Part shown: in pieces, positions 35,345 to 47,335 of the stretch | Layout: every line of letters starts with the position of its first letter | Position numbering within the stretch: the first letter of the stretch is position 1 | NCBI RefSeq assembly: GCF_001422405.1 | Contig: NZ_LMMV01000021.1 | Span: 62,858-126,857 of the forward strand | Length of the DNA: 64,000 nucleotides | From: Pseudorhodoferax sp. Leaf267 | GTDB lineage: Bacteria > Pseudomonadota > Gammaproteobacteria > Burkholderiales > Burkholderiaceae_C | Direction of reading: 5' to 3' | Position numbers and translations under genes: made by a program | The notes under the pieces: generated by a model | Database searches by the model: none | What the model was told of the DNA's origin: nothing | What the model saw: only the letters and a program-made list of their open reading frames with translations

Positions 35345-35653
35345 TCAGCCGGATGCGCCTGATTTCATCCTCGCATGCTTCACGCGCAGCACCTCGACCG
35401 CCTGGCTCTGGTCCTCGCCCGGCATCAACCGGTAGTACGCCAGGTAGTTCCGGTGCAGCACGAGCATCCGCATGTTGGTCGGCAAGCCTGGCCCGGCGGC
35501 ACGTCCGATCTCCGGATACTCAGCCAGCAGCGCCGCCTTCTCACGTAACTCGGCGACGAAGCTCGCCGCCCGCGCCGGGTTGTCTCGGGCGATGAAGCGT
35601 CGTATCGCCAGCAGGTCGTCCAGGGCCTGCGGCCGCCAGCGGACAGTGGCCAC
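35345..35653 (-). CDS. RelE/ParE family toxin
   Basis: 102 residues with a ParE-type fold: VRWRPQALDDLLAIRRFIA at the start, AELREKAALLAEYPEIGRAAG in the middle and the strand MLVLHRNYLAYYRLMPGEDQSQAVEVLRVKHARM at the end. The conserved Tyr/Arg and final VLRVKHAR are present, so it looks intact. ParE toxins poison gyrase, while RelE relatives cut mRNA; the sequence fits ParE better. The gene upstream on the same strand (nine bases away) is the likely antitoxin. Confidence 0.85.
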   Translation of the reverse strand: MATVRWRPQALDDLLAIRRFIARDNPARAASFVAELREKAALLAEYPEIGRAAGPGLPTNMRMLVLHRNYLAYYRLMPGEDQSQAVEVLRVKHARMKSGASG

Positions 35654-35662
35654 GGGCGCGAG

Positions 35663-36124
35663 TCAGCGGACCGAACCGCGCGATGCCGGCGTCGCATCGT
35701 TCAAGGCATCGGCCTCCAACGCCGCGAACATCTCATCCGTCGACAAGCTCGGCCGAGGGTCATCGATCGCCGCCTGCAGCTCTGCCGCCAGTTCTTTCTG
35801 ATGGGCGGCTGCCTGGTGTGCTTCGCGCATGGCCGAGGCGCGCCGGTCGCGGGCCTGCGGAGCGATGTCTCGCTGATCTGGATCCCACCGGCTGATCTCG
35901 ATCTGGGCAACACCGATGCCCAGATCTCGCATCACCATGATGGCAGTCGTCGGGTTCCCGAACTTGCGTGGCTCGGTCGACCGCGCCTTGGCCAAGACCG
36001 CATGGTGGCCGGCACGCGTGGCGATCTGCAGGTAGAAGCTGCCGCCCTGTGCGCTCAGGGTGACGCCCTTGACGCCGCCCGCCTCCACCGTGGCCCTCAG
36101 TTGATCCAGCGTGACAGTTTGCAT
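35663..36124 (-). CDS. Putative antitoxin or plasmid-stabilisation partner of the ParE-like toxin
   Basis: 153 residues. The N-terminal domain (LRATVEAGGVKGVTLSAQGGSFYLQIATRAG) precedes a Lys/Arg segment AKARSTEPRKFGNPTTAIMVMRDLGIGVAQIEI, a DNA-binding-like beta-helix pattern also seen in ParC-like ICE proteins. A long Ala/Glu/His helix follows, and an acidic tail (LSTDEMFAALEADAL) could wrap the toxin. Position (first gene, short gap to the toxin) supports the antitoxin call. The fold is not one of the common antitoxin families I know. Confidence 0.62.
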   Translation of the reverse strand: MQTVTLDQLRATVEAGGVKGVTLSAQGGSFYLQIATRAGHHAVLAKARSTEPRKFGNPTTAIMVMRDLGIGVAQIEISRWDPDQRDIAPQARDRRASAMREAHQAAAHQKELAAELQAAIDDPRPSLSTDEMFAALEADALNDATPASRGSVR

Positions 36125-36267
36125 GGTGCTCTCAAACGTTCCAACGGAATTGTGCGCGACCTATGGAATTCCTGCAACGCGCCGATTGGTTGGCGTCGCG
36201 TGCGGTCCGCAGGTTTCCTGGCTACTGCGGCATGTAGGACGACGTCGAGAATCGGTGTCAGACAATT

Positions 36268-36285
36268 TTGTATTGCGCAATACAA
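36268..36285. promoter_or_regulatory. Perfect 18-bp palindrome, candidate operator
   Basis: TTGTATTGCGCAATACAA reads the same on both strands. It lies 17 bases before the SprT-like ATG and about 145 bases before the divergent antitoxin gene. A symmetric, AT-edged palindrome in a divergent intergenic region is typical of a repressor-binding site. Candidate binders nearby are the putative antitoxin and the HTH protein at 37167. Confidence 0.6.
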
Positions 36286-36302
36286 ACACAACCGACAACA
36301 CG

Positions 36303-37076
36303 ATGCTTCAAGCTGCACGATCCGTCCCGACCCGGGAGACCTACGACGAGCTGCAGGTGGCCTACAGCCACTTCAATGCGCGGCTGTTCGATGGTGCGCT
36401 GCCAGACTGCCTCATCACGCTCCAGCGGGAGAAAAGCACCTGCGGCTATTTCTCGGCGAAGCGTTTTGCCCGGGCAGACGGCGAAACCACCGACGAGATC
36501 GCGTTGAACCCGTCGTACTTCGCTGCGGTGCCCCTGGTCGAGACGATGCAGACGCTGGTGCACGAGATGGTGCACCTATGGCAGCACCACTACGGCGCGC
36601 CCGGCCGCGTGCGGTACCACAACGAGGAATGGGCGGCCAAGATGGAAGGCATCGGCCTCATGCCCTCCTCCACCGGGCGGCCAGGCGGCAAGCGCACTGG
36701 CGACAAGATGTCCGACTACGCGGTGGAGGGCGGGCCGTTCCTGCTGGCCTGCGCCGAGCTGCTGACTTTGTCGTTCAACATCAGCTGGTACGACCGGTTT
36801 CCGGCGGTCGAGCATGTGCGCTTCGGCGAGTCGAGTCTCTCGGCCGCGCTGCCAGCCGCGGTTGGTGGTGGTGCTGCGCCGCTGGCCAGCCATGCCCTGC
36901 TCGCCGGCGTCATGCATGCGTCGGTGTCGGCTGCGCAGGACGGTGCAGCGGGCGTGGCTGCTGCCAACAAGTCGAATCGAACGAAGTACGTGTGTGGCTG
37001 CCGTAGTGCGGTGTGGGGAAAGCCGGGACTGGTCATACGCTGCGGGGTGTGTGACGAAGCGTTTGAACCGCAGTGA
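36303..37076 (+). CDS. SprT-like zinc metalloprotease domain protein
   Basis: 257 residues. The active-site motif is HEMVHLWQHH (~82-91) with HxxxH zinc ligands, preceded by YFSAKRFARADGETTDEIALNP as in SprT/SprT-like domains. The C terminus has a zinc-ribbon-like pair of cysteine clusters (YVCGCRSAVW and IRCGVCDEAF). SprT/Spartan relatives cleave DNA-bound proteins, so it could remove DNA-protein crosslinks or host proteins during transfer. That is inference. ATG 36303 is used because upstream in-frame codons run through the palindromic promoter region. Confidence 0.85.
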   Translation: MLQAARSVPTRETYDELQVAYSHFNARLFDGALPDCLITLQREKSTCGYFSAKRFARADGETTDEIALNPSYFAAVPLVETMQTLVHEMVHLWQHHYGAPGRVRYHNEEWAAKMEGIGLMPSSTGRPGGKRTGDKMSDYAVEGGPFLLACAELLTLSFNISWYDRFPAVEHVRFGESSLSAALPAAVGGGAAPLASHALLAGVMHASVSAAQDGAAGVAAANKSNRTKYVCGCRSAVWGKPGLVIRCGVCDEAFEPQ

Positions 37077-37130: not shown

Positions 37131-37165
37131 TTTGACCAAAGGAGCTATGCGTTTTAAAGTGCATA
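37131..37165 (+). promoter_or_regulatory. Promoter with overlapping palindromic operator for the HTH-DUF5131 operon
   Basis: -35 TTGACC (37132-37137) and -10 TAAAGT (37155-37160) are 17 bases apart. The -10 is embedded in the inverted repeat TATGC-N2-TTTAAA-N2-GCATA (37146-37165). The transcription start would fall at about 37166-37168, so the message for the HTH protein would be leaderless or nearly so. Autorepression by the HTH protein would explain the operator placement. Confidence 0.5.
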
Positions 37166-37166
37166 A

Positions 37167-37565
37167 ATGCTAAGAATCCAGCGCGCTCCAGGTGCGGACA
37201 TTTATCGCTATCGTCAAGATCTGAAGCAGTACCTGGTCCGAACGAAGACCACTGCGACGGCCCTGGCCCGAGACGTGGGCGTCAATCAATCGACGGTTCA
37301 GCGCTTCTTGGCAGGGGACACGAAGAACGTCACGCGCCGGATGCGAGGGGTCCTCCGTTATGCGGGTATCGATGTGGAAATCCGCATAGCTGAGGCGCCG
37401 CAGGCCGCGGCGGACCATCCGAGGATTCGCAAGGCCCTGGAGCGGGTCTGGGACGGGAGGCCGCAAAGCGCCGATGTCCTGGCCAGTCTGATCGAGGCCA
37501 TCGGGCCATTCGTACAGCAATCCTTCCCGACTGGGCCGGGAGCAAGCAAAGGAGAACGGACATGA
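37167..37565 (+). CDS. HTH-type transcriptional regulator
   Basis: 132 residues. A helix-turn-helix near residues 28-55 (TATALARDVGVNQSTVQRFLAGDTKN) is of Xre/bacteriophage type. The rest is helical (ALERVWDGRPQSADVLASLIEAIGPFV). It overlaps the DUF5131 gene by four bases (ATGA), so it likely regulates this cassette. There is no Shine-Dalgarno at usual spacing, and the ATG sits right at the predicted transcription start. Confidence 0.76.
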   Translation: MLRIQRAPGADIYRYRQDLKQYLVRTKTTATALARDVGVNQSTVQRFLAGDTKNVTRRMRGVLRYAGIDVEIRIAEAPQAAADHPRIRKALERVWDGRPQSADVLASLIEAIGPFVQQSFPTGPGASKGERT

Positions 37566-38311
37566 GCACGACCAGCAAAATCGAGTGGACGGAGCAGACA
37601 TGGAACCCCGCCGTGGGTTGTACGAAGATCTCGCCCGGCTGCAAGAACTGCTATGCCGAGACCATGGCGCGCCGTCTCCAGGCCATGGGCGCGCCCGGGT
37701 ATGAACGGGGGTTCGAGCTGCAGTTGCTGCCGCAGCGGCTCGATGAACCGGCCAAGCGCAAGAAGCCGACGACCTACTTCGTCAACTCCATGTCCGACCT
37801 GTTCCACGACCGGATTCCGGACGCGTACATCGAACAGGTGTTCGCCACCATCGCGCGCACACCGCAGCACACCTATCAGGTGCTGACGAAGCGCGCGGCC
37901 CGGCTGGCCAGGTTCTTCCGCACGCGTGCCGTGCCGCCGAACGCCTGGCTCGGCGTGTCGGTCGAAAACCGCAAGCACGGCGTGCCGCGGATCGACCACC
38001 TGCGCGAGGTGCCGGCGCGCATCCGGTTCCTGTCGGTGGAGCCCTTGATCGAGGACGTGGGCCAGTTGGACCTGACGGGCATCCACTGGGTCATCGTGGG
38101 CGGCGAATCTGGACCCAAGGCCAGGCCGATGAAGCTGGAGTGGCTGGAGTCCGTGCGGCTGCAGTGTGAGGCCCAGAAGTCGGCCTTCTTCTTCAAGCAA
38201 TGGGGCGGCTGGGGTGTTGATGGGAAGCGCCGCGCCAAGTCGGCCAATGGCCGCTTGCTCAACGGCCGCATCTGGGATGAGATGCCATCGTCGCTGGTCG
38301 ACGTCGCCTAG
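37562..38311 (+). CDS. DUF5131 (phage Gp37/Gp68) three-Cys-motif protein
   Basis: 249 residues. The N terminus has a cysteine motif GCTKISPGCKNCYAE (Cys 20, 27, 30; C-x6-C-x2-C) following EWTEQTWNPAVG. The rest includes VNSMSDLFHDRIPDAYI, LTKRAARLARFF, WLGVSVENRK, RFLSVEPLIEDVG and VIVGGESGPKARPM, all family-typical. The cysteines may hold an Fe-S cluster, giving a radical-SAM-like enzyme, but the spacing differs from the classic CX3CX2C. It is regularly found next to TcmP proteins, as here. The biological role is unproven; a defence role is suspected. Confidence 0.88.
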   Translation: MSTTSKIEWTEQTWNPAVGCTKISPGCKNCYAETMARRLQAMGAPGYERGFELQLLPQRLDEPAKRKKPTTYFVNSMSDLFHDRIPDAYIEQVFATIARTPQHTYQVLTKRAARLARFFRTRAVPPNAWLGVSVENRKHGVPRIDHLREVPARIRFLSVEPLIEDVGQLDLTGIHWVIVGGESGPKARPMKLEWLESVRLQCEAQKSAFFFKQWGGWGVDGKRRAKSANGRLLNGRIWDEMPSSLVDVA

Positions 38312-39522
38312 CGCTTGGCGCTTGCAAGCGGCAGCAACACGAGGCGCTCCCCATCCTTCTCATAGTGCAAATGTCGGGTACGGCGGGCCTTCTGCGCATC
38401 GAGATTCATCACATGGCCATCGGCGATCAAGCGACCCAGCGACGCCTGGTAGTCACTGGGCAGCCATCCTGTTGATTCCATGAAGTCTGCCATCTGGTCC
38501 TCGCCGACCTGAATGACTTTCTCTTGCAAGTAGGAGAGCCAGAAGGCATCGACGACACGCGGGTCCAGCGCGTCACCAGGTTGCTCGAAGCTCGCTTCCC
38601 CGAACAGATCCTCCATACCGCTTTCAGCTTCGCGCCTGGCGTTGCGCTTGGTGGCTCGCACGCGGCGTTGCACGATCTGCAAGCCCTCGGAGATCTCCAT
38701 GAACTCGACGATGCCCTTGGGATGGGTCGTGAGGTAGACCAGGTGGTATTTGGGCCTGTCCTTCGTGGGGTCCATCACGCGCACATGGGCCGTGCGAGCG
38801 CGGTGGTTTCCGCCCGAACCTGTGACGCGCTGCTTCATGCCCTCGCGGTACGCATGCACCAGCTTTTCTTCTCGCTCTCCGGGAGGTAGACCGTCCAGGC
38901 TGCGTACGGTCTCAACGTCGCAGCCCAGGAACTGGGCGATGTCTTCCTGCCATTGGCCCATGGCGGCCGTGCGATTGATGAAGTCGTACATGAAGTTGAC
39001 CAGAAACTCCGATCCCGGCCGCGTCAATAACGGTTGTAGGCACTCCACCCCGACCGACTTCCACCCCTTGGGATCGACGAAGAAGAATGTGAAGGCCCGC
39101 CGGCCGCACCAGCTGAGAATGGCCTCGCGTAGCTCCACGAAGTCGCCCTGCAAGCAGTCCGCCTGGACGCCGGCGGGACAGGCGCGGGCCAGGTAGGACT
39201 GCAGGCGGCCGAAAGCCTGAGGATCGCGTTCGATGTACAGCGCACGCATCGTCGCCTGCACTCGGAACCCTCGCAACACCTTGCGGCAGTTCGCCATCGT
39301 CTTGAGCGAGATGGCGATTGACGTGCCCTCCATGTCCTCGGTGCCGTCGCCCCACGGGCCTGCAAAGCAATCCACGTAGCAGATCTCGATCTCGCCACTG
39401 CGACGCCCTCCCATGCCGACGATCATGAGCAATCGTTCCAGGTAGCTGGCCAGCAATTGGTGCTTGATCCAGGCCTGCTCACGTCCGTCGTAACCATCAG
39501 GGATGGTGGGTGTTTGTCTCAT
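38308..39522 (-). CDS. tcmP: Three-Cys-motif partner protein TcmP
   Basis: 404 residues. The N-terminal domain has a Rossmann-like start (EICYVDCFAGPWGDG) and ALYIERDPQAFGRLQ, a pattern seen in SAM-dependent methyltransferases, with FTFFFVDPKGWKSVG as motif IV-like. A C-terminal winged-helix-like region follows (VIQVGEDQMADFMESTGWLPSDYQASLGRLIADG). TcmP is named for always accompanying the DUF5131 protein; the pair overlaps convergently by four bases. Its enzymatic activity is not known to me. It is not on the operon strand, so it needs its own promoter near 39530-39560. Confidence 0.87.
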   Translation of the reverse strand: MRQTPTIPDGYDGREQAWIKHQLLASYLERLLMIVGMGGRRSGEIEICYVDCFAGPWGDGTEDMEGTSIAISLKTMANCRKVLRGFRVQATMRALYIERDPQAFGRLQSYLARACPAGVQADCLQGDFVELREAILSWCGRRAFTFFFVDPKGWKSVGVECLQPLLTRPGSEFLVNFMYDFINRTAAMGQWQEDIAQFLGCDVETVRSLDGLPPGEREEKLVHAYREGMKQRVTGSGGNHRARTAHVRVMDPTKDRPKYHLVYLTTHPKGIVEFMEISEGLQIVQRRVRATKRNARREAESGMEDLFGEASFEQPGDALDPRVVDAFWLSYLQEKVIQVGEDQMADFMESTGWLPSDYQASLGRLIADGHVMNLDAQKARRTRHLHYEKDGERLVLLPLASAKR

Positions 39523-39642: not shown

Positions 39643-40707
39643 CTAGCCAGCGACGGGCACCTGGTTGTGCCACCGTCGGCGCGGCCCATCCGGCATGGCG
39701 AAAGCAGCGGCAGCAGCGAAGTGCACGCCGAGTGGGTGGTGCCGTTCCAGCAGTGCTTGCAGGGTCTCGCGCCGGCTCCGCAGGTAAATGGTCGTCGTCG
39801 ACAGGTTGGCGTGACCGAGCAGGATCTGGAGGGTGCGCAGGTCCATCCCTCGTTCCTGGAGGTGGGTTGCAAAGGCGTGCCGGAAGCCGTGGGGGGTCAT
39901 CATGGGCAACTCCGCCAGCGCCGCGTGCCGACGCACCAGCGCGCGCAAGTGGAAGTACTGCAGGCGCAGGATGGGGCTGGGGTTCACAAAGACGGCGTCG
40001 GTGGCATGGGCGTAGCCCATGGCCTGGTGGATCAGCACCGATCGCGCACCGGTGAGGTACCGCTCCAGCCAGGTGGACGCTTCCTCGCCGTAAATCACCA
40101 GCCGTTCCCGGGCCCCCTTGCCGATGATGTGGATCACGCGGTCGAGGCGTTCTACATGGTGCATGCGCAGAGCCACAAGTTCGGCAGCACGCATTCCGGT
40201 GGCGTAGAGCACCTCCATCACGGTGCGATCCCGCACGCCCAGCGCGGTTGTGGCGTTCGGGGTCGTCAGCAAGCGGTGCATTTGTTCCACGGTCGGAACG
40301 TAAGGAGGGGTGCTGCGTTGCGCTGTCCGAAACGGCGCAAAGTCCAGCGTTGGGTCATCGGCACGCAACTTCTCACGCCGAGCCCATCTGTAAAGTCGCT
40401 GGAGCATCCAGCGCCTCGCTACGACCGTCGAACTGGACGCGTTGACGAACGCTGCCAGGTAGTGGTGCAGATCCACACGCTGCGCCTCGCGCCAAGTGCG
40501 GTCGCGCTGTCGTGACAGCCAGTGGGCGTACTCCAGCAGCATGCGGTTGAGTTTGCCGATGCTCACGATCGCGAGCCCGTCCGCCTGCGTGTCCAGTATG
40601 AAGTTGCGCAGGTGCTGGTCAATGAGAGCGCCGCGCCCCGTACGCGGTGTTGGCAACAGGCGGCCAAGCACGGGGTAGCCCTTCCCGCGCGGCTCTTGGT
40701 AAGACAT
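39643..40707 (-). CDS. Tyrosine recombinase, XerC/XerD-like
   Basis: 354 residues. The catalytic set is visible: Arg in YATGMRAAELVAL, Lys in IGKGARERLV, HxxR in TPHGFRHAFATHLQ, His in ILLGHANLSTTTIYL and Tyr within the same IYL segment. The N-terminal SAM-like arm-binding domain (~30-130) is present. Size and motif order fit XerD-type recombinases. It is not beside an attachment site or relaxase, so it probably does not excise the ICE. It could resolve dimers of the circular form or belong to a resident cassette. Confidence 0.87.
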   Translation of the reverse strand: MSYQEPRGKGYPVLGRLLPTPRTGRGALIDQHLRNFILDTQADGLAIVSIGKLNRMLLEYAHWLSRQRDRTWREAQRVDLHHYLAAFVNASSSTVVARRWMLQRLYRWARREKLRADDPTLDFAPFRTAQRSTPPYVPTVEQMHRLLTTPNATTALGVRDRTVMEVLYATGMRAAELVALRMHHVERLDRVIHIIGKGARERLVIYGEEASTWLERYLTGARSVLIHQAMGYAHATDAVFVNPSPILRLQYFHLRALVRRHAALAELPMMTPHGFRHAFATHLQERGMDLRTLQILLGHANLSTTTIYLRSRRETLQALLERHHPLGVHFAAAAAFAMPDGPRRRWHNQVPVAG

Positions 40708-44917: not shown

Positions 44918-47335
44918 TCAGGCCGCAGCCAACAGCTCCTTGGCCAGGGCCACTTCCAGGCTGTCACCCTGGGACTCGTTCAGAACGTCCAGACCGGATT
45001 CGGGCATATCGCCCGAGGTGGACTGCGACACTGCGATCTTCTTGCCCATGAGCCTCAGGCAGTCCATCTGCGTGGTGCCGTGGTAGCCGAGATAGACCAC
45101 CCTGACCGGCTTGCGCTGCCCGATCCGCCAACTGCGCCTGGCGGCCTGCTGGACGGTGTAGACATTGAAGCCGGACTGCATGAACACGATGGTCGGAAAC
45201 TCCAGCAGGTCCAACCCTGTCTTGACGAGTTCCGGGTTGCAGATCACGACGTCGACACCGCGCTCGACCTGGTCGGCCACCCAATCCTCGCGCTTGGACG
45301 CGTCCACGGTTGCCCGCAGCACGGCCACCTTGAAGCCTCGGACCTCCAGCAGGTACTTGAGCCTGGCTGTCGTGTCGCGCGTACCCGAATAGATCGTGTA
45401 CGCCAACACGCGCCGGCCGGCCAGCTTCTCCTGTTGGCAGATCTCCACGAGTCGGGCCTCCTTGGGCATCATCGTGGTGTCATCGAACATGGCCGGCTGC
45501 AGGTGCAGCACGGACCGTGTGCGCGGATGCCTGACGGTCTCCGAGCGGAAGCAGCAGTCTGGCCAGGCCAGCAGCACGTTCATCACGACGCCCAGCAGCG
45601 CGCTGTCCTTCATGGCCAGCGCCTGCTTGAGGATGCTCACCAGCTTGCTTGCCATGACGGCGTAGGCCTGGCCCTGCTCCTCGGTCATCTGCACGGGCTC
45701 GAACGACTCATCGTAGGGAGGTAACGCCTTCGCGTCGATCTCCCGCAGCTTCAGGAAAACCGTCATCGGCAGTACGTATCGCAGGATGCCGACCGGTCCG
45801 AAGCCCGGCGCCTTGCTGGTCCGGACCGTCAGGCTCTTCGCGCGCGCCGTGCGGTGCGAGCTGGAGCCGGTCTCTTTGTACACGTCCTTGAGCACGCCAT
45901 GCTCGCGCATGAAGGCCATGTTGGCACCGTGGAACGAGCCGCGTTCGGTGGGCTTGAAGCCATCGGCCACCATGACGGCGGGGTTGAGCCTCCACAGCAG
46001 ATGGAACAGATCATCGGCATAGCCTCCCATCAGCGTGCCGGTCAGCAGCAGCGTCTTGCGACACTGGCTGGCCAGCACTCCCATCGCCTGGCCCTGCGCC
46101 GAACCCTCGTTCTTGTACTCATGGCCTTCGTCGACGACCAGCAGCCCGAAATAGTCCTTCGGCAGGTAGCGCTTGATGAACTCGGTGGCCTGGTAACCGC
46201 CCTGCCCGATCGAGAACTCGAATGTCGCCATCGACCGCTCCAGCCGCTTGGCCTGGCGGTCGCTGAACACCAGTTCGCCGTTCTCGTCCATCAAATTGAT
46301 GAACTCGTAGACGTTGTCCTCCAGCATGGTGCCCAGCAGCGATTCGCCGAACATGTCCAGCAGCCGCTTGGCTGCCACCGGGCCGATCGTCGGAAGCTTC
46401 TGCATCGCCGCGCCGACAAGGTCACGCAGCGAGTGCTGCGCGGTGCCCGGCCGCATCAGTGTCCACAGGGGGCTGCGGCACGATTTGACCTCGCACGATA
46501 GGCGCTGATCGCTCAGTGCTGCCGCAGCGAATTCGGCAGAGATCCACGAACGGTGCCCCTCCGAATCCTTACGCTCCAGCGGTGTCATGCACTGCGGGCA
46601 GCAGGCGACGCGCAAGGTCTGGCCATCTTCTCGCAGACGACGGGTCAGGAATGCAGGCTTCCAGTGGAAGCCCAGGCGCATGCGCACACGGCCGAGTACA
46701 AAGAACTCCGGCTGACGCGTTTTCAGCCCGAGCGAGGTGCGCAACTGCAGCAGCTTGCGCAATGTGTCGGGGCCATTGAGGACCCAGACCTTGGCACTGG
46801 GCACCGTCTCCATGATCTCCCGCCGCCACTTGTAGACCAGGTGCGGCGGACTGACGATCAAGGTGCGCGGATGGTGCTGCTGCACGACCGCTGCGGCGCA
46901 GATGGCCATCATGGTCTTGCCCGAGCCCATCTCGGCGTTCAGGACCACGGCCGGTTCGTTTCGGTCCAGCAGCAGCTTGCTGATCGCCTGGACGGCTTCG
47001 GACTGTGCCGGAAATGGCTTGCGTTTGAGAGCGGCCATGATGGCCTGTCGCCGGTGCCAGATCTCCAGCTGCTGGTCCTGCACGGTCAGGTAGACCGGCG
47101 GGTTGCTCGCCTTGACTTGTTCCAGCATGCTGGCCCCGAAAGACCGCATGAAGTCGCCCAGTGCGATGGTCTCGCCGATGACCCCATCCATGATGTCGGG
47201 GCTTTCGCCCAGGTCGGGTGCGGCCTGCAGATCCTCGGCCGTCACAGTGGTTTCCTCGCCGGCCGGCGCAGGCGTTGCCAGCGTGCCGCTGGCGTCGTTG
47301 CTGATGACCACCATGTGGTCGTGCTCGTTTTCCAT
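44918..47335 (-). CDS. SNF2-like DEAD/DEAH helicase, ICE type
   Basis: 805 residues. It has Walker A NAEMGSGKT (133-141) and the DEGH box (403-406, VVDEGHEYKN). The C-terminal helicase lobe carries GLDLLEFPTIVFMQSGFNVYTVQQAARRSWRIGQ, the SNF2 motif VI. A zinc-ribbon-like insert (CCPQC ~247-250, SCEVKSC ~281-287) lies between the motif-I and motif-II regions. SNF2-family proteins move or strip proteins on DNA, so it may help replication or establishment of the ICE, or displace host proteins. The gene is minus-strand, and its leader at 47336-47437 holds a GCCGGC-type hairpin. Confidence 0.84.
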   Translation of the reverse strand: MENEHDHMVVISNDASGTLATPAPAGEETTVTAEDLQAAPDLGESPDIMDGVIGETIALGDFMRSFGASMLEQVKASNPPVYLTVQDQQLEIWHRRQAIMAALKRKPFPAQSEAVQAISKLLLDRNEPAVVLNAEMGSGKTMMAICAAAVVQQHHPRTLIVSPPHLVYKWRREIMETVPSAKVWVLNGPDTLRKLLQLRTSLGLKTRQPEFFVLGRVRMRLGFHWKPAFLTRRLREDGQTLRVACCPQCMTPLERKDSEGHRSWISAEFAAAALSDQRLSCEVKSCRSPLWTLMRPGTAQHSLRDLVGAAMQKLPTIGPVAAKRLLDMFGESLLGTMLEDNVYEFINLMDENGELVFSDRQAKRLERSMATFEFSIGQGGYQATEFIKRYLPKDYFGLLVVDEGHEYKNEGSAQGQAMGVLASQCRKTLLLTGTLMGGYADDLFHLLWRLNPAVMVADGFKPTERGSFHGANMAFMREHGVLKDVYKETGSSSHRTARAKSLTVRTSKAPGFGPVGILRYVLPMTVFLKLREIDAKALPPYDESFEPVQMTEEQGQAYAVMASKLVSILKQALAMKDSALLGVVMNVLLAWPDCCFRSETVRHPRTRSVLHLQPAMFDDTTMMPKEARLVEICQQEKLAGRRVLAYTIYSGTRDTTARLKYLLEVRGFKVAVLRATVDASKREDWVADQVERGVDVVICNPELVKTGLDLLEFPTIVFMQSGFNVYTVQQAARRSWRIGQRKPVRVVYLGYHGTTQMDCLRLMGKKIAVSQSTSGDMPESGLDVLNESQGDSLEVALAKELLAAA

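Follow-up and report, generated by a model that had tools for sequence, protein, structure and literature searches.

The window examined here, a 64-kb stretch of the genome of Pseudorhodoferax sp. Leaf267, carries within an integrative and conjugative element (ICE) a compact cassette of three genes, which encode a small helix-turn-helix (HTH) protein, a DUF5131 protein and a three-Cys-motif partner protein (TcmP). DUF5131 is predicted to resemble the radical S-adenosylmethionine (SAM) enzymes and TcmP to be a SAM-dependent methyltransferase, and we read the cassette as a candidate defence module acting on nucleic acid. A sequence-only reading of the window had placed the start of the cassette at position 37131. 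Its three genes are present as claimed, while the first start codon in the HTH frame lies at 37167, 36 bases downstream. The features of the cassette are as follows.

37146–37165, plus strand: TATGC-N10-GCATA, a probable operator just before the HTH start
37167–37565, plus strand: HTH gene (Cro/C1-like, 132 amino acids), an open reading frame for a probable autorepressor
37562–37565, plus strand: ATGA, HTH stop and DUF5131 start
37562–38311, plus strand: DUF5131 gene (PF07505, 249 amino acids), predicted radical-SAM-like; PF07505 match at 5e-109
37619–37651, plus strand: Cys20, Cys27 and Cys30 of DUF5131 (C-x6-C-x2-C), probable Fe-S ligands
38308–38311, no strand assigned: CTAG, tail-to-tail overlap holding both TAG stops (DUF5131 and TcmP)
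38308–39522, minus strand: TcmP gene (404 amino acids), TIGR04474 at 102 bits; predicted class I methyltransferase fold
39064–39075, minus strand: D150-P151-K-G153 of TcmP, at the place of the RlmJ DPPY/DPSY motif

The two four-base overlaps and the cysteine spacing described in the sequence-only reading can be read directly from the DNA: ATGA is common to the HTH and DUF5131 genes, CTAG is common to the two convergent genes, and the three cysteines stand at the positions given. Translation of HTH and DUF5131 is likely to be coupled through the shared ATGA.

The pairing of the two larger genes is conserved: TcmP hardly ever occurs without DUF5131 beside it. In a class sample of 369 genomes, which includes the window's own, TcmP occurs in 20 genomes and DUF5131 in 29, and DUF5131 is adjacent to TcmP in 20 of the 20 TcmP-positive genomes (20 of 21 TcmP matches), so that the pairing is beyond chance. 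The genome_contigs collection held 223 relatives of the window's TcmP subfamily, the best 80 of which were kept as loci (L numbers denote individual loci). DUF5131 is present in 76 of these 80, and in the remaining four a contig end lies near the match. Phages also carry DUF5131 (161 of 50,697 viral records), and no close relative of the window's TcmP subfamily was found among viral contigs.

Gene order varies among the 20 class-sample pairs, with six convergent, five with DUF5131 first and nine with TcmP first. The tail-to-tail overlap seen here is shared by many other convergent copies. Among the 80 best viral loci, all 19 convergent pairs overlap, by 4–89 nt, nine of them by exactly 4 nt. 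Fourteen of 18 hand-picked further loci (window included) are convergent and all 14 overlap, nine by exactly 4 nt; this set contains the six convergent class-sample pairs, three of which overlap by 4 nt. By the same measure, three of the 76 genome_contigs loci are convergent, and none of the three overlaps. The exact 4-nt overlap is therefore found in 18 of the 36 convergent pairs examined, a set that is in part hand-picked. It recurs in the Gordonia phages Easley and ThankyouJordi and in plasmids of Rhizobium, Agrobacterium and Sinorhizobium, where TcmP is ∼25–27% identical to the window protein over the matched part. Common descent together with compaction can explain the overlap, and mutual antisense control through it is possible.

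Copies of the pair are found on ICEs, on plasmids and on phages that bear an integrase. In the window, TraD, TraC (TIGR03754, TIGR03744), TIGR03746, TIGR03752 and TIGR03756 scored above cut-off around the cassette, at 17–31 kb (five of the ten window proteins scanned). The surroundings are, by these matches, a conjugative element with MPF_G-type ICE transfer genes. The earlier description of a self-contained pair on mobile DNA, placed inside an ICE, is supported.

Two predicted SAM enzymes

Membership of the two families is clear. The window DUF5131 protein scores 363.9 bits against PF07505 (Pfam gathering cut-off 28.9) and TcmP scores well above the NCBIfam cut-off of 53 bits for TIGR04474, so that the window pair shows no family-level difference from the three-Cys-motif pair defined by these two families. 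All 53 DUF5131 proteins aligned, that of the window among them, have Cys20, Cys27 and Cys30. The canonical radical-SAM motif is C-x3-C-x2-C, which is absent from DUF5131, where C-x6-C-x2-C is found instead. An AlphaFold2 (AF2) model of the protein (pLDDT 86.7, pTM 0.86) was compared with solved structures using Foldseek. Ranks 1–6 are TigE, four spore photoproduct lyase entries and lipoyl synthase (prob 0.93–0.99, best E 0.0065), and spore photoproduct lyase accounts for five of the first 11 matches. The likeness to spore photoproduct lyase (prob 0.96–0.99) is one of fold, as a sequence search of solved structures with the DUF5131 subfamily profile gave no match at E ≤ 1. DUF5131 is thus predicted, though not proven, to be radical-SAM-like by fold and cysteines.

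The AF2 model of TcmP (pLDDT 90.6, pTM 0.90) matched 24 methyltransferase chains in the Protein Data Bank at E ≤ 0.001, with COMT first and with Trm1 (3axs) and RlmJ (6qdx, 7p9o, 7p9i) among them. At the equivalent of motif IV, the D, P and G of DPxG are present in 54 of 54 TcmP proteins, window included, in place of a DPPY-type motif. The hidden Markov model of the TcmP family weakly matches RlmJ-like genes of relatives, of which the L009 copy is PF04378. Twelve of the 13 RlmJ-like weak matches, which align as one family, were used for an RlmJ alignment (L016 was left out), and a profile of 20 diverse TcmP proteins matched the resulting RlmJ profile with prob 87.7 and E 3.4e-6. TcmP shares with RlmJ, the 23S rRNA N6-methyladenosine (m6A) methyltransferase, the methyltransferase core, an alignment of DxFAG with DTHAG, the S in GSP and the D-P of motif IV. 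It differs from RlmJ in having DPKGW in place of DPPY/DPSY and an extra C-terminal part, and the likeness is detected with the family-wide profile only.

By eye, this C-terminal part resembles a winged helix. A sequence search of solved structures with the window TcmP subfamily profile gave no match at E ≤ 1, and one with the 20 diverse TcmP proteins gave weak matches, the best being a C-terminal stretch of MCM4 (E 0.016), which we take to be a winged helix. These comparisons predict that TcmP is a class I, SAM-dependent relative of the RlmJ methyltransferase, whose active-site motif is DPxG and whose C-terminal region looks like a winged helix of the kind that binds nucleic acid. Structure prediction in this way supports two putative SAM enzymes, one radical-SAM-like and the other class I methyltransferase-like.

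Relatives and regulators

Many relatives of the window cassette are larger. A whole second TcmP gene (TcmP2) is present in 38 of the 80 loci; L076 has a further copy that is cut by the contig end, and L094 a remnant. In the closest relatives (L071–L075) TcmP2 lies between DUF5131 and the first TcmP gene (TcmP1). A gene for an S24/LexA-like repressor lies within 1.5 kb in 36 of the 80 loci (one a weak match), and the L072 copy matches Pfam Peptidase_S24 at 3.9e-25. L072 shows the full plan, with the HTH gene, the S24 gene, DUF5131 and TcmP2 followed by a convergent TcmP1. No S24 gene and no second TcmP were found in the window. A TcmP1 tree of 53 of the 80 loci plus the window groups the window with L071, L073 and L074 (support 99/97), all three of which have TcmP2. 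In the 17-row group that contains the window, 15 of the other 16 rows have TcmP2 (L094 with a remnant only) and 13 have the S24 gene as well. Since the window nests among relatives having both genes, their loss from its lineage is the simplest history, and the tree suggests that the window copy is probably a reduced form. The remnant in L094 (9638–9883) encodes 82 residues, is 88% identical to the L080 copy and lies between DUF5131 and TcmP1; TcmP2 has thus been lost in a second lineage too.

The S24 proteins retain an Ala-Gly pair in 25 of 26 cases and a Ser and a Lys in 26 of 26, which are presumably the LexA cleavage site and the catalytic dyad, respectively. The palindrome G[AT]AC-N4-GT[AT]C occurs in 12 of 36 S24 upstream regions (35 loci), where ∼0.3 would be expected from its density in all loci, and in all 12 it lies 20–28 bp before the start of the protein match, which is the start codon in most. 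We take it to resemble LexA boxes of the CGAAC-N4-GTTCG type. At loci that include L085, L096 and L101, a -35-box-like TTGACT immediately precedes the palindrome GAACGATCGTTC or a close variant of it. At least 12 other S24 upstream regions have TGATTT-N7-AAATCA touching the start codon. The palindrome rows include close relatives, so these counts are not independent. An S24/LexA-like repressor with self-cleavage residues suggests that the module of these relatives is induced by DNA damage or infection. Neither the second-TcmP form nor the LexA-type control was found described in the literature searched.

The S24 proteins of L077, L080–L084, L086 and others have a different, possibly ribbon-helix-helix N-terminus, and their genes carry a palindrome like TGATTTCGTCACGAAATCA that touches their own start codon.

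The window itself has the small HTH protein as its regulator. This protein reached no family cut-off, its HTH matches being weak. Its TATGC-N10-GCATA element occurs once in the 64-kb window and not at all in 100 shuffles, and an identical element stands directly before the HTH homologue of L072 (14403–14422), to which the window protein is 51% identical. Among 194 loci, the element is found in L072, in copies of the window and otherwise in L121 alone. These observations favour the autorepressor proposed in the sequence-only reading, and make it probable that the window HTH protein acts as a repressor at its own promoter. The idea that the HTH gene belongs regularly to the system was considered and rejected: in the 80 relatives, a whole and adjacent homologue is found in L072 only, with a 40-residue match in L074 and a copy apart from the pair in L089, and the commonest regulator of the subfamily is the S24/LexA-like repressor. 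No SOS box of the E. coli type was found near the window HTH or TcmP starts when up to one mismatch was allowed.

Defence context and rival explanations

Both predicted enzymes of the window match a catalogued defence candidate. DUF5131 matches PADLOC PDC-M30B (PDLC04569) at 4.1e-111 and 368 bits, and PDC-M41B at 3.3e-110; the best match of TcmP is PDC-M30A (PDLC04567) at 1.4e-14, with PDC-M41A weak at 0.0091. The PDC-M30 assignment consists of adjacent A and B profile matches, made without PADLOC per-model thresholds or system rules. The window shares with PDC-M30 (and PDC-M41) the two-gene plan of TcmP and DUF5131, and differs in that its TcmP belongs to a divergent subfamily and its own HTH gene has no PADLOC match. 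Relatives such as L072 differ further, with a second TcmP that also matches PDC-M30A and an S24 repressor without a PADLOC match. The PDC systems are candidates obtained from guilt-by-embedding, without experimental validation, and PDC-M30 was present in 32 of 100 Pseudomonas aeruginosa strains, 68.8% of these being phage resistant, a correlational figure (PMC10855318). Two PDC-M30 systems are listed for strain PA14 (PMC11878078). In an expression table of PMC12445080, the TcmP gene SMa2243 is listed next to hna (SMa2245), a defence gene. Prophage genes of S. meliloti include TcmP in PMC12429752, whose PADLOC table lists no PDC-M30.

The surroundings of the pair in relatives also include restriction genes. 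By blastp cluster, seven of the 80 loci have a type III mod gene no more than ∼4 kb from DUF5131, and six have res. For the L103 copies, Pfam identifies both mod and res and PADLOC matches mod. L103 and L112 have TcmP, DUF5131, mod, YhcG and res in one direction. Four of the mod loci (L103, L104, L109 and L112) fall in one five-row group of the tree (99/95) and three (L110, L111 and L131) elsewhere, all of the loci still being related. As a rough base rate, PF01555 gave 62 matches in ∼172 Mb from 33 host genomes, compared with seven mod genes in 1.37 Mb of related loci; the 33 genomes are those with long contigs and are a different sample from the loci. L086 has a type IIG enzyme between its two TcmP genes, as do L087 and L092 by cluster assignment, and on plasmid pRphaN671a N-6 methylase and Eco57I-type genes adjoin the pair. 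In all three Gordonia phages examined for this (Easley, ThankyouJordi and Fairfaxidum), the pair is the immediate neighbour of the immunity repressor, towards the integrase. Genes in such a position are usually active in a prophage.

Of the defence or modification unit proposed in the sequence-only reading, the defence part is supported by the PDC-M30 match, the mod genes near the pair and the three phage immunity regions. Our best reading is defence by nucleic-acid modification, and we give about an even chance to the cassette being a mobile two-SAM-enzyme defence module of PDC-M30 type that acts on nucleic acid, in a minimal, HTH-controlled form. DUF5131 and TcmP would act on the same nucleic acid, with RNA a rather more likely target than DNA because of TcmP's kin. 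One enzyme would make a radical-based change and the other would methylate the product, and the outcome would be that phage growth is blocked or that self and foreign nucleic acid are marked apart. In many relatives, the S24/LexA-like repressor would cleave itself, leading to induction upon DNA damage or infection. The window copy would have lost TcmP2 and the S24 gene and would now stand under the small HTH protein, coupled to DUF5131 and repressing its own promoter.

Several observations weigh against this reading. The match of TcmP to PDC-M30A is modest (51.9 bits). For DUF5131, the best Foldseek E-value is just 0.0065, with other TIM-barrel proteins from rank 7; the radical-SAM profile PF04055 has no match at E 0.1; and TIGR04471 (“radical SAM mobile pair protein A”) scores 95 bits where 355 are needed. 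COMT-type enzymes outrank RlmJ and Trm1 in the TcmP Foldseek list, in which the query TM is at most 0.37, so the fold match is limited to the TcmP core, and the window TcmP subfamily profile does not match RlmJ (prob 0.3). As far as can be seen, the S24 link belongs to this subfamily alone: one of 20 class-sample loci (1.5-kb flanks) and two of 39 paired viral loci have such a gene. TcmP lies within 1.5 kb of DUF5131 in 39 of the 80 best viral loci, and DUF5131 stands without it in the other 41. No experiment on the DUF5131/TcmP pair was found in the open-licence literature, where absence is weak evidence.

A PADLOC scan of 130 neighbour and 121 control proteins likewise gave no clear enrichment, with 93 and 50 families matched, respectively, at family level only. 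The neighbour proteins came from the 80 loci (at most three per locus, within 5 kb, 150–1400 amino acids, excluding TcmP, DUF5131 and S24; 130 taken at random from 200), and the controls from 20 fixed 15-kb stretches (121 drawn from 165). Among the 25 families listed for each, the neighbour set has four type III methylases, two DrmD/Snf2-like proteins and two PDC-S02 proteins, and the control set has Cas5/Cas7, one type II methylase, one RtcR and two DndA/SspA matches (taken as IscS-like). In a Pfam scan of the 130 neighbour proteins, N6_N4_Mtase came first (four members), mixed with housekeeping families.

Given a fold like that of spore photoproduct lyase and a regulator like LexA, the strongest rival is a module for DNA repair or damage tolerance, in which DUF5131 would repair lesions like spore photoproduct lyase, TcmP would aid on damaged DNA and the LexA-like repressor would switch the genes on. 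The prominence of spore photoproduct lyase in the DUF5131 Foldseek list speaks for this, as do the S24 genes in 36 of 80 loci with their 12 LexA-type palindromes in 36 upstream regions, and a SprT-like gene, found close to the cassette in both the window and L141 and next to DUF5131 in L166. A further lead is Rv2735c, a putative member of this family. In M. tuberculosis it shares a transcript with recA and recX (PMC3062782). However, TcmP looks like a relative of RNA methyltransferases, the pair is patchy (20 of 369 genomes) and mobile, and the S24 link has been seen in one subfamily only; the type III restriction loci and phage immunity regions fit defence better. We regard repair as unlikely.

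The restriction genes could also mean that the pair is a self-marking part of restriction-modification, adding a DNA base modification for neighbouring restriction enzymes or shielding the mobile element from host restriction. The position of the pair in L103 and L112, where type III mod, a YhcG-like gene and res follow directly downstream, the type IIG enzyme between TcmP genes in L086, the methylase and Eco57I-type genes on pRphaN671a and the carriage of DUF5131 by phages all agree with such a role. We find it somewhat harder to credit than repair: the mod cluster is found in just seven of 80 loci, the window cassette has no restriction gene, and TcmP lacks DPPY and has RNA-acting enzymes as its nearest nucleic-acid kin.

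A more specific version of the defence reading is a long shot. There, the radical-SAM enzyme and the methyltransferase would together make a hypermodified nucleoside, probably one of tRNA or rRNA, upon cleavage of the LexA-like repressor in infection, the overlap would be kept for mutual control of the transcripts, and the window copy would be a minimal form freed from DNA-damage control.

A toxin-antitoxin or addiction module that merely stabilises the mobile element is highly improbable despite the compact, overlapping layout, the own regulator and the presence on plasmids and ICEs, given the enzyme-like size and the conserved catalytic-type residues of both proteins, the freely varying gene order, a ParE-like pair next door (35345–36124) and the 41 of 80 viral loci in which DUF5131 lacks a TcmP within 1.5 kb; no toxin-antitoxin family scored over cut-off for HTH, DUF5131 or TcmP.

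The pair, present on ICEs, plasmids and phages, is listed as a defence candidate, and we found no published chemistry for it. The present data give the pair two testable enzyme assignments and, in one subfamily, a probable inducing signal, with the window copy as a natural minimal form of 2.4 kb that lends itself to cloning. If the reading is true, radical-SAM and methyl chemistry working together on nucleic acid would be among the means of defence.

Neighbouring genes

Beside the cassette, the window carries on the minus strand (35345–36124) a ParE-like toxin gene (PF05016, 4.5e-19) and a gene weakly like RelB/PaaA2 antitoxins. A SprT-like metalloprotease gene (36111–37076, plus strand) precedes the cassette. 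Its true start is probably downstream of 36111, since homology begins at about residue 64–72 in most relatives. SprT homologues are also found near DUF5131 in L141 and adjoining it in L166. No close ICE relative with an empty site was found: among eight SprT-bearing stretches, one (L166) has DUF5131 beside SprT, and TcmP was detected in none.

On the far side, a XerD-like recombinase (39643–40707) was considered as mobiliser of the cassette and set aside, with weak matches in two of the 80 relatives' loci (L088 and L124, 25–28% identity). An argument from foreign composition was also dropped, as the GC content of the three genes (0.62–0.66) is similar to that of the element; the HTH gene is lower in GC at third codon positions (0.68 vs 0.78–0.89 in neighbours). 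Repeats flanking the cassette are at most short and chance-like.

A Snf2-type helicase (44918–47335, minus strand) is 62% identical to a protein of the P. aeruginosa plasmid NZ_CP124633.1, which carries its own TcmP genes elsewhere in the element than at the window's cassette position. In this plasmid (L151, 10415–11139), DUF5131 lies between two TcmP genes and is split over two reading frames; it may be broken, as it is also missing from the gene table.

Genes of one blastp cluster, taken as TnsB-like transposases, lie within loci L071, L091, L095, L115, L120 and L123. In L071, the TnsB-like gene stands beside a TnsA-like gene and two more Tns-like genes (by eye), and some modules may therefore be Tn7-type cargo.

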